In this document: positions 15,950 through 20,741 of the stretch, in pieces
Layout of the letters: each line of letters opens with the position of its first letter
Position numbering within the stretch: position 1 is the stretch's first letter
NCBI GenBank assembly: GCA_944324265.1
Contig: CALUVS010000006.1
Span: 1 to 62,507, forward strand
Reading direction: 5' to 3'
From: an uncultured Traorella sp.
Lineage (GTDB): Bacteria; Bacillota_I; Bacilli_A; Erysipelotrichales; Erysipelotrichaceae
DNA: 62,507 nt
Program-made: the position numbers and the translations under genes
Notes under the pieces: generated by a model
What the model saw: the letters and a program-made list of their open reading frames with translations, nothing else
Databases searched by the model: none
What the model was told of the DNA's origin: nothing

Positions 15950-16234
15950 ATGAGCTTGTGTTATAAAAATTACAGAATTTAAAAAAATGAAAGTTTCGGG
16001 ATTTAGTGAAGATTGGTTCATTTTGATAGAATAAGTATATTTTCAAATACGCAGCTTACACGAGTAAAAGATGACGCTATCAATAAATCGGGTGTTCGCA
16101 GAATAAAGAACTATTGTTTCAGACATTCTCATGCGCCTATGTTAATTGATAGTGGTGAATTAACTATTTTAGATGTTTTCCGCAGACTTGGGCATTCTGA
16201 TTCAAACAAATATATTCGCACTTCTATAAGATGA
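15950..16234 (+). pseudogene. Decayed tyrosine recombinase (integrase) C-terminal fragment
   Basis: One frame reads ITEFKKMKVSGFSEDWF, shifts by one base near 16022, and continues as FDRISIFSNTQLTRVKDD ... RRIKNYCFRHSHAPMLIDSG ... FRRLGHSDSNKY. FRHSHA is the R-H-x-x-R-type core and RLGH the second box of Tn916/phage integrases. The protein then stops before the nucleophile Tyr, and no N-terminal half is present upstream. It lies 3' of tRNA-Ser, the normal place for an integrase left behind by an element integrated at a tRNA end. No attachment-site duplication was found by eye. Confidence 0.8.
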
Positions 16235-16607: not shown

Positions 16608-16620
16608 TGAATAGAAACAA

Positions 16621-16647
16621 GGCTTTCTAATAGTGAAAGCTTTTTTT
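16621..16647 (+). terminator. Terminator of tRNA-Lys
   Basis: GGCTTTC, 7-nt loop, GAAAGC followed by seven T. Confidence 0.88.
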
Positions 16648-16706
16648 ATATTTTTTTGAACAAAATCACTTCTGAGTGCTTATAAATGTATTGAGGAGGT
16701 GAAGAT

Positions 16707-16880
16707 ATGTTCCTATTGAGTGAACAAGAAATGAGATCGATGTATGGAAGTGTTGTTTCTACTGCAGCGATTTTGGGTTATGTGGCAGTAGCTGCCGGGA
16801 TTGCAGCGATTGTAAAGATCGTGACATCATCCAAGGGCCGTGTTTCTGTGCCGGGTGTCAATATCTCTTGGGGCAATTAG
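16707..16880 (+). CDS. Small hydrophobic peptide, bacteriocin-like
   Basis: A 57-residue peptide with a strong ribosome site (TGAGGAGGTGAAGAT). The first 15 residues, MFLLSEQEMRSMYGS, look like a short leader of the LS-x-x-E-(L/M)...G-(G/S/A) type cut by C39 peptidase transporters. The rest has a hydrophobic helix (VVSTAAILGYVAVAAGIAAIV) and a basic, polar end (TSSKGRVSVPGVNISWGN), like several unmodified Firmicute bacteriocins. No immunity gene or ABC exporter is adjacent. The alternative is a small membrane protein of the following radC-mre operon. Too short for most automated gene calls. Confidence 0.65.
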   Translation: MFLLSEQEMRSMYGSVVSTAAILGYVAVAAGIAAIVKIVTSSKGRVSVPGVNISWGN

Positions 16881-16925: not shown

Positions 16926-17330
16926 ATGAACAAAAAAAGTGCCAGTGTTTTTTTAGCTTTGTTTTTGAATGTGTTATTTGCAGGATTGTTTTTGGGTATT
17001 TCCTTTCTGTTAAAGGAAAATGAGAGTGCCACTGTATATATGAATCAGATTGGCATCTATGAGGAAGAAAGCAATGCTTCGGAAAGCAAACTGAAAGTAG
17101 AGGCTTTGGGACTTACAGCTTATACATATGCGTTAGATGATTTGTTTGTGGTGGTCAGTTCAGTTTATGAAGAAAAGTCATTGACGCAGAGTGAGGCAGA
17201 GCTTTTAAATGCAAACGGCATTTCATTTATCGAAAAAGAAGTGACTTCTTCCAGTCCTGCTTTCCTTGAAGCAATGCATGCAGAAGATATTGAAAAATTA
17301 ATGGAGTTGATGAACGATCAAAGTAGCTGA
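16926..17330 (+). CDS. Membrane-anchored protein with SPOR-like domain
   Basis: A 134-residue protein with an N-terminal membrane anchor (9-30, VFLALFLNVLFAGLFLGISF) and an extracytoplasmic part holding two short repeats, YMNQIGIYEEESNASES...GL and FVVVSSVYEEKSLTQSEA...GI. These recall the beta-strand plus helix pattern of SPOR domains, which bind denuded septal peptidoglycan. The SPOR call is inference. Its start follows AACGAGGTGAATA. It ends 1 nt before radC and leads the radC-mre-min run, which fits a role in division or cell shape. Confidence 0.7.
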   Translation: MNKKSASVFLALFLNVLFAGLFLGISFLLKENESATVYMNQIGIYEEESNASESKLKVEALGLTAYTYALDDLFVVVSSVYEEKSLTQSEAELLNANGISFIEKEVTSSSPAFLEAMHAEDIEKLMELMNDQSS

Positions 17331-17331
17331 A

Positions 17332-17994
17332 ATGAATGAAAATGAACGTCCGCGGGAAAAAGCACTTCGTTTGGGGATTGAGAGTCTAAGCAATCGAGAA
17401 TTGCTGGCTTTGCTTTTAAGAAGCGGTGTTGCTGGTTTTTCAGCACTGGAGGTTGCTGATCAGATCCTGCTTTTGAGAAATCATCTGGGGCTATTGCAAA
17501 ATGTCACTTTGCAGGAACTCACAAAGATCAAAGGAATCTCTCATGTCAAGGCTTTGGAAATATTGGCATGCATGGAATTATCCAGACGTGTAAGCTATGA
17601 TTCAATGTGTGAGGAGTTTCAGGTGGATCGTCCGAAAAAGCTGATTGAATGGATGAATAAGAAAATAGGATTTAGTGATCAGGAACATTTTTTTGTTTTA
17701 TTTTTGAATCAGAAGAATAAAATTATCGGTCACAAGCTTTTATTTGTCGGCTTGCTGGATAGCTGCAATATTGGTGCGAAGGAAGTATTCAAAGAAGCGA
17801 TTCGCTATAACAGTGCCAAGATTTTGCTGGTGCATAATCATCCCAGCGGCAGCGTAGAACCGAGTGTTGAAGATCAGCGGGTGACCATGCATCTGCAGGA
17901 TGTGGCAGATATTTGCAAGATACCAATCTTGGATCATATTATTGTCGGCAATAATCATTATTTCAGTTTTCGGGAGCATCAATTATTGACATGA
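17332..17994 (+). CDS. radC: RadC family protein (JAMM/MPN+ metalloprotein)
   Basis: A 220-residue RadC/YsxA-like protein. An N-terminal helix-hairpin-helix-like region (1-70: RPREKALRLGIESLSNRELLALLLRSG) is followed by the MPN+ domain, with the zinc motif HNHPSGSVEPSVED (about 168-181). RadC was once linked to DNA repair, but its biochemical role is unsettled. Here it sits directly upstream of mreC as in Bacillus, except that mreB is absent between them. Confidence 0.9.
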   Translation: MNENERPREKALRLGIESLSNRELLALLLRSGVAGFSALEVADQILLLRNHLGLLQNVTLQELTKIKGISHVKALEILACMELSRRVSYDSMCEEFQVDRPKKLIEWMNKKIGFSDQEHFFVLFLNQKNKIIGHKLLFVGLLDSCNIGAKEVFKEAIRYNSAKILLVHNHPSGSVEPSVEDQRVTMHLQDVADICKIPILDHIIVGNNHYFSFREHQLLT

Positions 17995-18037: not shown

Positions 18038-18054
18038 GAATAAAGGTGATAATT

Positions 18055-18879
18055 ATGTCAAAATTTACTCGCTTTCAGAAAATTTTGCTTGGGCTGATTG
18101 CTGTACTTTTAGTTTTTTCCTTACTGACATACGGCAAATCAAGTGTTCTTAAAAGTGTTGTGTATGATCCTTTGATCATGCTGAAATATTCTGTGATTGA
18201 TTATCCGATTGAAACAGTTCGTTCCTGGGTGCAGGATTTTAATGATTTATGGTATGTGCATGAAGAAAATGATCATCTGCGCTATGAATTGAGCCAGCAG
18301 GAACAATATGCGGCTCTTGTCGATGAATTAAGAAGAGAAAATGAAGAATTAAGCAGCTTGCTGGAATTAAGACAGACCAATTATGAAAGTATCAGTGCTC
18401 GTGTCGTTAACCGAAATGCGGAAACATGGAATAATCTGATTACTTTAAATGTTGGAGCCAATGACGGAATCTTGGTGGATATGGCGGTAGTCAATCATCA
18501 AGGACTTGTCGGCAAGGTAGTCGAAGTAGGTGAATGGACCTGCCGAGTACGTCTGCTGACTTCTCAGGATCAGCTGTCCAAAGTAGCTGTTCGAATTGTC
18601 TTGAATGAGGAAAGCACGATTGAAGGCTATTTGGAGGAATATGATCTGGAAAGAAAATCATTCCGTGTTCGTTTGTTTACAGATAGTGAAGAAATCCAAA
18701 ATGGACAGAAAGTCATTACCAGCGGATTGGGCGGTGTTTTCCCTAACGGTATCTTGGTCGGAGAAGTCAATGAGGTCGTAGAAATGATCAATGAAACGGG
18801 AATGACAGTTTATGTAACACCGGCGGCGGATTTCAATGATTTTGATTATGTATCGGTAATCAATGAGGTGATTTCATGA
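18055..18879 (+). CDS. mreC: Rod shape-determining protein MreC
   Basis: Bitopic membrane protein that scaffolds the lateral wall synthesis complex. It has an N-terminal membrane helix (about 9-27), a coiled coil (75-105, HEENDHLRYELSQQEQYAALVDELRREN in shape) and an extracellular double beta-barrel with NVGANDGILVDMAVVN and VITSGLGGVFPNGILVG, typical of MreC. ATG 18055 was preferred over a GTG 9 nt upstream that lies inside the ribosome site. It overlaps mreD by 4 nt (ATGA). Confidence 0.92.
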   Translation: MSKFTRFQKILLGLIAVLLVFSLLTYGKSSVLKSVVYDPLIMLKYSVIDYPIETVRSWVQDFNDLWYVHEENDHLRYELSQQEQYAALVDELRRENEELSSLLELRQTNYESISARVVNRNAETWNNLITLNVGANDGILVDMAVVNHQGLVGKVVEVGEWTCRVRLLTSQDQLSKVAVRIVLNEESTIEGYLEEYDLERKSFRVRLFTDSEEIQNGQKVITSGLGGVFPNGILVGEVNEVVEMINETGMTVYVTPAADFNDFDYVSVINEVIS

Positions 18880-19433
18880 TTATCTCGCTTTTATTTATCG
18901 GTGCCTGTTTTATCGGGGATATGATTTTGTCGGCTTTGCTGCCGGCAAGTTATCTTCCGACGGATATTGTTGTGGTTCATTGTTTGGGACTTTCTGCCCT
19001 TGTATTGACAAAGCGTCAGATGGATCCGATGGACTCACATTGTCTGTTTTTGCTTTTTGGTTTATTGTATGATTTCTTTGTCAGCAGCACCGGCTGTGTC
19101 TATATGATTATTTTCGGTATTTTAAGCTGGCTTGTGGCACAATGGCAGAAGCATATGATGGATTCAATGTTTGAAAGAGCATTGCTTTGCATTACGACAA
19201 TCTTCGTCAAAGAACTTCTGATATATTTCTATATGTATCTGATGCGTCATACGACTTTATCTTTGGGACAATTGATGACCAATCGCATTTTCATGACTAT
19301 TTTAGTCAATGGTGTATTGGTATTCTTGATCATTTTAGCTTCCCGTACGATTGATGATATCATTTTGATGCGTGAAAAGCGGATACGGAAGGAAGAACAT
19401 GTCACATGGTGGAAGTTAAAGTCAAAGCAGTAA
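18876..19433 (+). CDS. mreD: Rod shape-determining protein MreD
   Basis: An integral membrane partner of MreC, 185 residues with about five membrane segments and the short MreD-like segment LFGLLYDFFVSSTGCVYMI. It begins in the mreC stop (ATGA) and overlaps minC by 28 nt, so the three genes are probably translationally linked. The family is weakly conserved; the call rests on topology, size and position after mreC. Confidence 0.85.
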   Translation: MIISLLFIGACFIGDMILSALLPASYLPTDIVVVHCLGLSALVLTKRQMDPMDSHCLFLLFGLLYDFFVSSTGCVYMIIFGILSWLVAQWQKHMMDSMFERALLCITTIFVKELLIYFYMYLMRHTTLSLGQLMTNRIFMTILVNGVLVFLIILASRTIDDIILMREKRIRKEEHVTWWKLKSKQ

Positions 19434-19972
19434 ATCATGATTATTTTGTTGTATGCAGGGCCGCTGATTCATTTTTGATATTGGATGAACTTGAAAAAAA
19501 GCTTTGCGCATGCGCGTTTCACAGCGGGGATGTGTTCAAAGCTTTTTTTGTTTTTGAGTGTGCTGTTGATGAGGCTTTTTTGATTGAAGTATTGAAAGTA
19601 TGTCAGAAAACAAAGACAATGTTTTTGGGTGTGAAGGAAACGAAAAAGGATCAAGCTCTGCAGGTATATAAAGAAAAACTGTATGCAGGCAGTCAAGTGA
19701 CTTTTTTAGAGAATACATTGATCTGTACGGATATTCCAAAGGATTGCTTTGTTGTCAGTCATGCCTCTTTGTATGTTGTCGGAAAGGTATATGGCTGCAT
19801 TGATTTTCTGCATCCGGAATGTGAATGCTATGCCTCCGGCTATGAAAATGCAAGAATCCGTATTTTTGATACGAACTACCAGAATCTGACATTTTTCTGT
19901 GCACAGACAATTTATTATGAAAACCAGAATATCCTATTTAACGACCAAAGGAGGCTGGTTTATGGGCTTTAG
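19406..19972 (+). CDS. minC: Septum site-determining protein MinC
   Basis: FtsZ-assembly inhibitor recruited by MinD. The 188-residue protein has an N-terminal alpha/beta domain (1-90, poorly conserved) and a C-terminal right-handed beta-helix domain, seen in LYAGSQVTFLENTLICTDIP and SLYVVGKVYGCIDFLHPE, matching the YAGQ...GNIHVYGxLRG pattern of MinC. It overlaps minD by 11 nt. Confidence 0.85.
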   Translation: MVEVKVKAVNHDYFVVCRAADSFLILDELEKKLCACAFHSGDVFKAFFVFECAVDEAFLIEVLKVCQKTKTMFLGVKETKKDQALQVYKEKLYAGSQVTFLENTLICTDIPKDCFVVSHASLYVVGKVYGCIDFLHPECECYASGYENARIRIFDTNYQNLTFFCAQTIYYENQNILFNDQRRLVYGL

Positions 19973-20741
19973 TATCGCTGTCACTTCTGGTAAGGGAGGC
20001 GTAGGGAAAAGCAGTATCTGCATAGGATTAGGAGTTGCTTTGGCACAGGCTGGATTTCAGGTCTGTCTGATTGATATGGATCTAGGTTTAAAAAATTTAG
20101 ATGTAATGATGGGATTGGAAAATCGTGTTTTTTATGATCTGATGGATGTGATGGAACAGCGTTGTTCACTGAATAAAGCAATCATCAAAGACAAGCATCA
20201 GCAAAATTTAAGTCTGCTGCCGGCATGCAAAACCATGCAGACTTCACAGTTTAACGGAGATAAATTTATTCGTATTGTCAATGAATTAAAAAATCAGTTT
20301 GATTATATTTTGATGGATACACCTGCCGGAATTGAATCAGGCTTTCTTCATGCCATGCATTGTGCTGACCGCATGATCGTAGTTACGACATTAGATGTAA
20401 CGGCTTTGCAGGATGCTGATCGAATCATCGGCTTGTTGATGAAGGAAAATGCAGATAAGATTCAGCTTATTGTGAATCGATGCAATCCTCGCTATATTGA
20501 AAAAGGCATCAGTGTTCGCCTGGAAGAAGCATTGAACTGGCTTTCAATTGAATTATTAGGAATTGTCTATGATGAAGAAATGATTGTCAAAGGTCATAAC
20601 AAGGGAACTCCATATGTCATGGATGAAAGCTCGCTGACACATGAATGCTTTAAGCAGATTGTTGCTACTTTCTTAGGAGAACCAATTCAAATACCGAAAT
20701 ATCGTACCAAAGGCTTTCTTCAGAAATTCTTTATGACATAA
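19962..20741 (+). CDS. minD: Septum site-determining ATPase MinD
   Basis: Membrane-cycling ATPase of the ParA/MinD class. The deviant Walker A motif SGKGGVGKSS (9-18) has the signature first Lys, with LIDMDLGLKNLDVMMG as switch region and LMDTPAGIESG as Walker B. The C-terminal amphipathic helix (KGFLQKFFMT) is the membrane-targeting sequence. ATG 19962 follows AAAGGAGGCTGG and gives 259 residues; a longer upstream frame has no ribosome site. Confidence 0.94.
   Translation: MGFSIAVTSGKGGVGKSSICIGLGVALAQAGFQVCLIDMDLGLKNLDVMMGLENRVFYDLMDVMEQRCSLNKAIIKDKHQQNLSLLPACKTMQTSQFNGDKFIRIVNELKNQFDYILMDTPAGIESGFLHAMHCADRMIVVTTLDVTALQDADRIIGLLMKENADKIQLIVNRCNPRYIEKGISVRLEEALNWLSIELLGIVYDEEMIVKGHNKGTPYVMDESSLTHECFKQIVATFLGEPIQIPKYRTKGFLQKFFMT

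Follow-up and report, generated by a model that had tools for sequence, protein, structure and literature searches.

What is a small peptide with a bacteriocin-type leader doing beside radC? The question is raised by an open reading frame (ORF) of 57 amino acids (aa) in the window, that is, the whole 62,507-nucleotide stretch of contig CALUVS010000006.1 (assembly GCA_944324265.1) from an uncultured Traorella sp. A double-glycine leader together with a C39 peptidase is normally taken to indicate a bacteriocin or pheromone; in this case the inheritance of the pair resembles that of housekeeping genes. Our analyses suggest that the ORF probably encodes the substrate in a vertically inherited peptide-maturation system of two loci. 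A C39 peptidase would mature this membrane microprotein in trans, and the peptide would not be an arms-race bacteriocin. The pair is split over two conserved operons; the exporter part appears to have been lost, with the substrate and the protease kept.

A conserved peptide gene upstream of radC

The ORF (window 16707-16880, plus strand) encodes the product MFLLSEQEMRSMYGSVVSTAAILGYVAVAAGIAAIVKIVTSSKGRVSVPGVNISWGN. Its features are as follows.

16694..16701, plus strand: ribosome-binding site AGGAGGTG, five bases 5' of the ATG
16707..16751, plus strand: C39-type leader MFLLSEQEMRSMYGS, residues 1-15, assigned from the consensus in the available text of PMC6363468 and from comparison of relatives, with a predicted cut after S15
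16752..16877, plus strand: core, residues 16-57, a hydrophobic helix and a conserved K-x3-S-x2-G ... W tail; the portion retained by leaderless relatives

That the ORF is a real gene is confirmed: its ribosome site is strong, it is under purifying selection, and its relatives also lie next to radC on the 5' side; the 57-residue frame with a very strong ribosome site in the preliminary description is thereby borne out. A chance ORF or annotation artefact, which the shortness of the frame and the lack of a Pfam or NCBIfam family might suggest, is refuted by conservation across orders and codon-level purifying selection, and its probability is negligible. Searches of the window peptide against Pfam and NCBIfam gave no family above cut-off, and the Pfam matches below cut-off were unrelated. 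Among starts 35-110 codons before a stop, the ORF start was the sole fit in the window to the C39-leader pattern; the mean in 20 mononucleotide shuffles was 0.05.

Homologues were searched at the protein level in the order, where 101 of 294 genomes matched at E 1 or better, many of the weak matches probably by chance. Genomes and loci are cited below by G and L handles; f1 denotes the window's own family. In 66 of 71 inspected loci (67 genomes) the peptide gene is followed by radC in the same orientation, and the interval holds at most a SPOR-like gene, as it often does, or a short gap. The five exceptions are two loci at contig edges (L034 and L044), a false match (L069), and two loci from genomes without a RadC match (L054 and L060). 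In L068 the peptide fell just below threshold in this count, and was present in a closer reading of the locus. The pairwise ratio of nonsynonymous to synonymous substitution rates (dN/dS) was about 0.07-0.13 in the window's own genus where dS was unsaturated; in other genera it was 0.00-0.06 (the leaderless genus g44) and up to 0.34 (g41). G44 and W55 are invariant in an alignment of 30 sequences. It is thus more likely an old, inherited membrane peptide than the toxin precursor that it resembles.

The leader and its putative peptidase

The leader residues L4, E8, M9, M12, G14 and S15 occupy positions -12, -8, -7, -4, -2 and -1, and the window peptide has a C39-type leader ending G-G/A/S. The consensus reported for the substrates of ComA and LahT describes leader residues that occupy pockets of the C39 domain (PMC6363468, available text). 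The double-glycine-type leader that had been proposed therefore fits this consensus, and it also tracks a C39 peptidase gene. Leadered forms comprise all of family f2 and some f1 genera, with the patterns ELTxQE...GG or LSxxEM..YG-S/K. In the leaderless f1 genera, the frame opens with a Met where the core begins, and most have a good ribosome site at this point. Since these relatives start at the predicted mature core, the core of about 40 residues is the conserved product.

The peptide of this genome (G000) lies on contig 6. On contig 1, at 18224-18580, a stand-alone gene for a C39 (double-glycine) peptidase of 118 aa lies between phoH and ybeY, in the position directly upstream of ybeY (hereafter the slot). 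The slot protein passes the PF03412 profile with 25.9 bits against a curated cut-off of 22. The same profile found two frames in the genome, of 121 and 257 aa, neither of them of ATP-binding cassette (ABC) transporter size; a dedicated C39-ABC exporter was not found by this search. The preliminary description was thus right for the neighbourhood in stating that the peptide gene stands alone without an exporter, and is to be corrected as regards a processing gene, since the C39 peptidase gene lies on another contig of the same genome.

The AlphaFold model of the slot protein has a mean predicted local distance difference test (pLDDT) score of 93.4. In a comparison with the PDB, it aligned to the ComA peptidase 5xe9_A (Z 14.8, 115 residues, root-mean-square deviation (rmsd) 2.4) and to LahT with leader (Z 14.1), and it is also like the PCAT1 peptidase domain. 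C3, H75 and D90 are the sole invariant residues in 15 slot C39s, which share 20-49% identity with the first of them. By profile, triad and modelled fold, the slot protein is a peptidase of family C39, and it is predicted to cleave the leader.

A Pfam C39 search matched 39 of 80 peptide-bearing genomes, mostly as a short stand-alone frame in leadered f1 genomes and as a transporter of ~680 aa in f2. Four leadered f1 genomes had no slot match in this search (G054, G056, G110, and G100); the C39 was present once the slot was read directly. Order-wide co-occurrence was assessed in 185 genomes of at least 90% completeness. In f1, a slot C39 was found in 12/12 leadered genomes and in 0/21 leaderless genomes (17 without a C39 match at E 0.1; four with a C39 elsewhere). 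Presence of a leader thus tracks presence of a slot C39 in the window's family, the comparison of relatives that had been proposed as a check. No slot C39 was seen in peptide-less f1 genomes, in a survey that did not list every ybeY position. All 36 of the f2 genomes with the peptide are leadered and C39-bearing; 32 have the C39 in the slot, and 4 have the C39 and ybeY on different contigs.

A phylogenetic tree was reconstructed from RadC and YbeY of 43 genomes. The leader and C39 traits agree in 43/43 genomes, with three losses each on the same branches. Assuming independent, length-proportional losses, the length-weighted chance of such shared branches is about 3e-5.

Lys and Arg residues are more frequent after the helix than before it in 42 of 48 sequences (totals 153 vs 26). 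Topology is commonly read from the placement of these residues by the positive-inside rule, and because they concentrate after the helix, an N-out/C-in topology is likely.

Proposed mechanism and points against it

A precursor of about 57 aa with a C39-type leader would be made from the radC operon, and the phoH-ybeY operon, at another place in the chromosome, would supply the C39 cysteine peptidase. The peptidase would bind the leader and cut after the G-S (or G) site. The core of about 42 aa would stay in the producer's own membrane, with the N-terminus out and the basic, Trp-bearing tail in the cytoplasm, and might work there as a small membrane component. The processor probably descends from a full C39-ABC transporter, of which the window's lineage would have lost the transport parts and kept the protease. 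Some sister lineages would have lost the leader and protease together, and may translate the core directly.

Several observations weigh against this reading. Many f1 genera are without the peptide, so it is not indispensable. A slot C39 without detectable peptide was found in two f2 genomes (G038 and G065). Neither C39 nor ybeY was found in four leadered draft genomes (G222, G198, G247, and G224), which are not assessable because ybeY was not found. A conservative pair (sign) test had two independent pairs on well-supported branches and gave p 0.5, being underpowered. The residue pair at the cleavage site is G-K in four congeners and G-L, G-M or G-R in others, where G-G/A/S is expected; cleavage is less certain outside the window's species because these P1 residues vary. 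The Gln six residues before the Cys of C39 peptidases is missing in the C39 of this genome, whose gene starts two residues before the Cys. In the stand-alone C39s the Cys is preceded by 2-5 residues (with an unclear start in G056), too few to include the upstream Gln of the full-length ones. The available text of PMC6363468 doubts the oxyanion role of this Gln. Moreover, cleavage itself is a prediction, and the slot ABC exporters of f2 and the mycoplasmas may secrete the core, which would weaken the idea of membrane retention.

The non-canonical P1 residues, the missing Gln and the two genomes with a slot C39 and no peptide would also suit an uncut housekeeping membrane microprotein of the radC/mre operon, with the leader-like start as a coincidence or a binding tag and another substrate for the slot C39. 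The 43/43 agreement and joint disappearance of leader and C39, the triad invariant in 15/15, and the start of leaderless forms at the predicted mature end make this quite improbable. A RadC/Mre partnership is also unlikely, since two genomes (G192 and G189) are without a RadC match and the mycoplasma peptide lies upstream of rplU. Strict linkage to radC/mre without leader cleavage had been named in the preliminary description as the outcome favouring such a housekeeping peptide; the linkage was observed, and the other half is contradicted by evidence that favours cleavage.

RadC was considered and rejected as an obligate partner. The peptide is retained in G192 and G189, whose drafts (89% and 88% complete) gave no RadC match, and it occurs without radC in most inspected mycoplasma loci. 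In G189 the leader is degenerate and the slot lacks a C39. A hidden, diverged peptide in f1 genera without a match was also considered. No likely copy turned up on reading the radC regions of 19 f1 loci and one region from f2; two weak matches (E 2.9 and 4.8) were judged unconvincing.

Some individual loci are irregular. Some genomes of f2, in genus g63 (G009, G044, and G074; L043:4980-5545), carry tandem leadered copies upstream of radC, and one copy in L043 is decayed. In G009 (contig 19, 22286-22678) the slot C39-ABC reads as a 192-aa frame despite several peptide copies, which may be a frameshift or an assembly error. In G065 (contig 83 and L200), the slot C39 protein is a 553-aa frame, and the SPOR-radC locus is intact without the peptide. 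In G000 contig 1 (L072:4379-4952), an acetyltransferase-like gene, named by eye, lies between phoH and the C39 and appears split over two overlapping frames, frameshift-like.

The locus in the window and the bacteriocin question

The other features of the locus are as follows.

16619..16643, plus strand: terminator-like hairpin after tRNA-Lys, 5' of the peptide gene
16926..17330, plus strand: gene for a SPOR-like protein, the downstream neighbour of the peptide (Pfam SPOR E 0.09, under cut-off)
17332..17994, plus strand: radC (Pfam PF04002)
18046..18879, plus strand: mreC (Pfam PF04085)
18876..20741, plus strand: mreD-, minC- and minD-like genes, with mreD and minC assigned by gene order (no Pfam match) and minD by ParA/MinD-type domains

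The hairpin closes the tRNA-Lys unit 5' of the peptide gene. No terminator-like site was found between the peptide gene and the SPOR-like gene, whose end nearly abuts radC. A 73-aa frame at 16013-16234 (plus strand), beside tRNA-Ser and tRNA-Lys, has no Pfam match; it presumably resembles the C-terminal end of a tyrosine recombinase, and might be a mobile-element relic.

Could the core act on neighbours, as an exported bacteriocin or peptide pheromone carried by a slot ABC protein or another transporter? The leader is canonical, full C39-ABC proteins occur in f2 and the mycoplasmas, and some f2 genomes carry tandem peptide copies. The TIGR03949 bacteriocin leader model weakly matched 5 of 20 relatives (best E 2.7e-4), and the maf-radC-mreB operon of B. 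subtilis is under competence control, according to the available text of PMC4474612. Against export, the chromosomal locus is fixed over orders under purifying selection, the slot protein of f1, f8, f19, f24 and f25 is without transport parts, and the leaderless forms retain the core and lose the whole processing system. As the preliminary description noted, there is no recognisable immunity gene beside the peptide; the neighbours are tRNA-Lys, the SPOR-like gene, RadC and MreC. The window peptide matched no bacteriocin profile at cut-off in NCBIfam or Pfam, and a plasmid search for it gave no match. We consider export unlikely. The bacteriocin assignment is not supported, given vertical inheritance beside radC, the lack of a recognisable immunity gene, purifying selection, and the lack of an ABC exporter part in the slot C39 of this genome.

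The proposed trans-maturation system was also compared with known systems. It is like PCAT/AMS proteins (ComA, LahT, and PCAT1) and their double-glycine substrates in the C39 domain (PF03412), the Cys-His-Asp triad, the fold and the leader positions -12/-8/-7/-4. Unlike in those systems, two separate conserved housekeeping operons encode the substrate and the peptidase, the distribution is vertical, and the slot peptidase of this genome is without a transporter part. Class II bacteriocins (PF10439, TIGR03949, and TIGR01847) share the leader type, size and hydrophobic core, with weak matches in some relatives; they differ from the present peptide, which has no recognisable immunity gene or cluster, a fixed locus, purifying selection and a core conserved after leader loss. 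EbfG1-4/PteB of Synechococcus elongatus, as described in the available text of PMC4997328, are also small double-glycine proteins, whose role is not that of a bacteriocin and depends on a C39 Cys. However, these are secreted cyanobacterial biofilm factors, their peptidase is described as a peptidase transporter, and the likeness is one of description. No description of a radC-linked or ybeY-linked C39 system was found in the literature searched, which did not cover most subscription papers. Genome miners should be cautious in labelling such peptides bacteriocins. The pairing also explains stand-alone C39 genes near ybeY.

Slot architectures across the class and in mycoplasmas

Profile searches were extended beyond the order. 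Matches were obtained in 87 of 395 genomes of the class (E 0.01) and in 96 of 392 of the phylum (E 0.001), the latter all within the class, where the share of the 392 lying outside the class is not given. In 17 of 20 loci, drawn mostly from families f8, f19, f24 and f25, the next gene in the same orientation beyond the peptide is radC or radC lies further along; it is adjacent or overlapping in 16 and 2.3 kb off in L179, and the exceptions are L167, L176 and L177. Among 58 genomes examined, mostly from other families, 57 have both C39 and ybeY. In 53 of these the C39 gene is at most 5 kb upstream of ybeY, and in the remaining 4 it is on a different contig.

Across the class, three kinds of protein occupy the slot: C39-ABC transporters, C39-membrane proteins that have no ATPase, and bare C39s. 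The f2 and f16 proteins are full ABC proteins; the f24/f25 slot C39s have 131-171 aa. In f8/f19, the protein consists of C39 and a membrane part (~390-420 aa) without an ABC ATPase, and C39 was the only family above cut-off in four proteins of this type. The AlphaFold model of the f19 protein has a mean pLDDT of 66, with values near 60 in the membrane part. It could be aligned to PCAT1 over residues 9-466 (Z 19.4, 238 residues, rmsd 6.2), which suggests a transporter minus its ATPase. In six f2 slot transporters, a simple motif scan found Walker A in 5, a Walker B-like motif in 4 and an LSxGQ-like signature in 3. ATPase activity is thus likely in f2 slot transporters, though not for all six.

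The mycoplasmas (family f16) were translated with TGA as Trp. Of 15 loci, seven have the peptide immediately upstream of rplU-rpmA, and four have it between rpmE and lspA. In one locus it is next to rpmA, and in another (L232) it precedes radC-rplU-rpmA; the last two (L229 and L230) have it elsewhere. By its gene order L232 connects both settings, and the rplU site has the look of a former radC site from which radC was lost. The f16 peptides retain the leader and hydrophobic core, and mostly the K-x3-S-x2-G...W tail. In the mycoplasma records, the C39-ABC gene adjoins ybeY in 9 of 11 loci; L242 has no ybeY nearby, and L249 ends inside the gene. The retention of the peptide in mycoplasmas and the RadC-less genomes argues for a role independent of RadC. 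Mycoplasmas have no cell wall, and because they retain the peptide, its role there should not depend on peptidoglycan.

One mycoplasma C39-ABC protein is 0401 of JCVI-syn3A; the ybeY linkage is known here from other mycoplasmas, not from M. mycoides. According to the available text of PMC6609329, 0401 carries a C39 domain, while a double-glycine candidate is lacking there as it is in other mycoplasmas; the protein was tentatively assigned to lipoyl import. The present peptide family offers a candidate substrate for such mycoplasma C39 proteins reported without an apparent double-glycine peptide (PMC6609329). More tentatively, and short of an even chance in our estimate, the system might be vertical across the class, with a membrane microprotein freed from its C39-type leader by a ybeY-operon peptidase and kept even in mycoplasmas. 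If so, C39 processing would belong to basic cell physiology, beyond warfare or signalling. The orphan C39 transporters of mycoplasmas, among them gene 0401 of the minimal cell JCVI-syn3A, would then have their missing natural substrate in this peptide.

Family f12 (L220 and L221) has tandem double-glycine peptides with a different core, which were left out of this analysis. They belong to a second kind of double-glycine peptide with a DGY/F-x-R-P-L/F-x-C ending, which also occurs in L254 and L256, beside or near C39-ABC genes.
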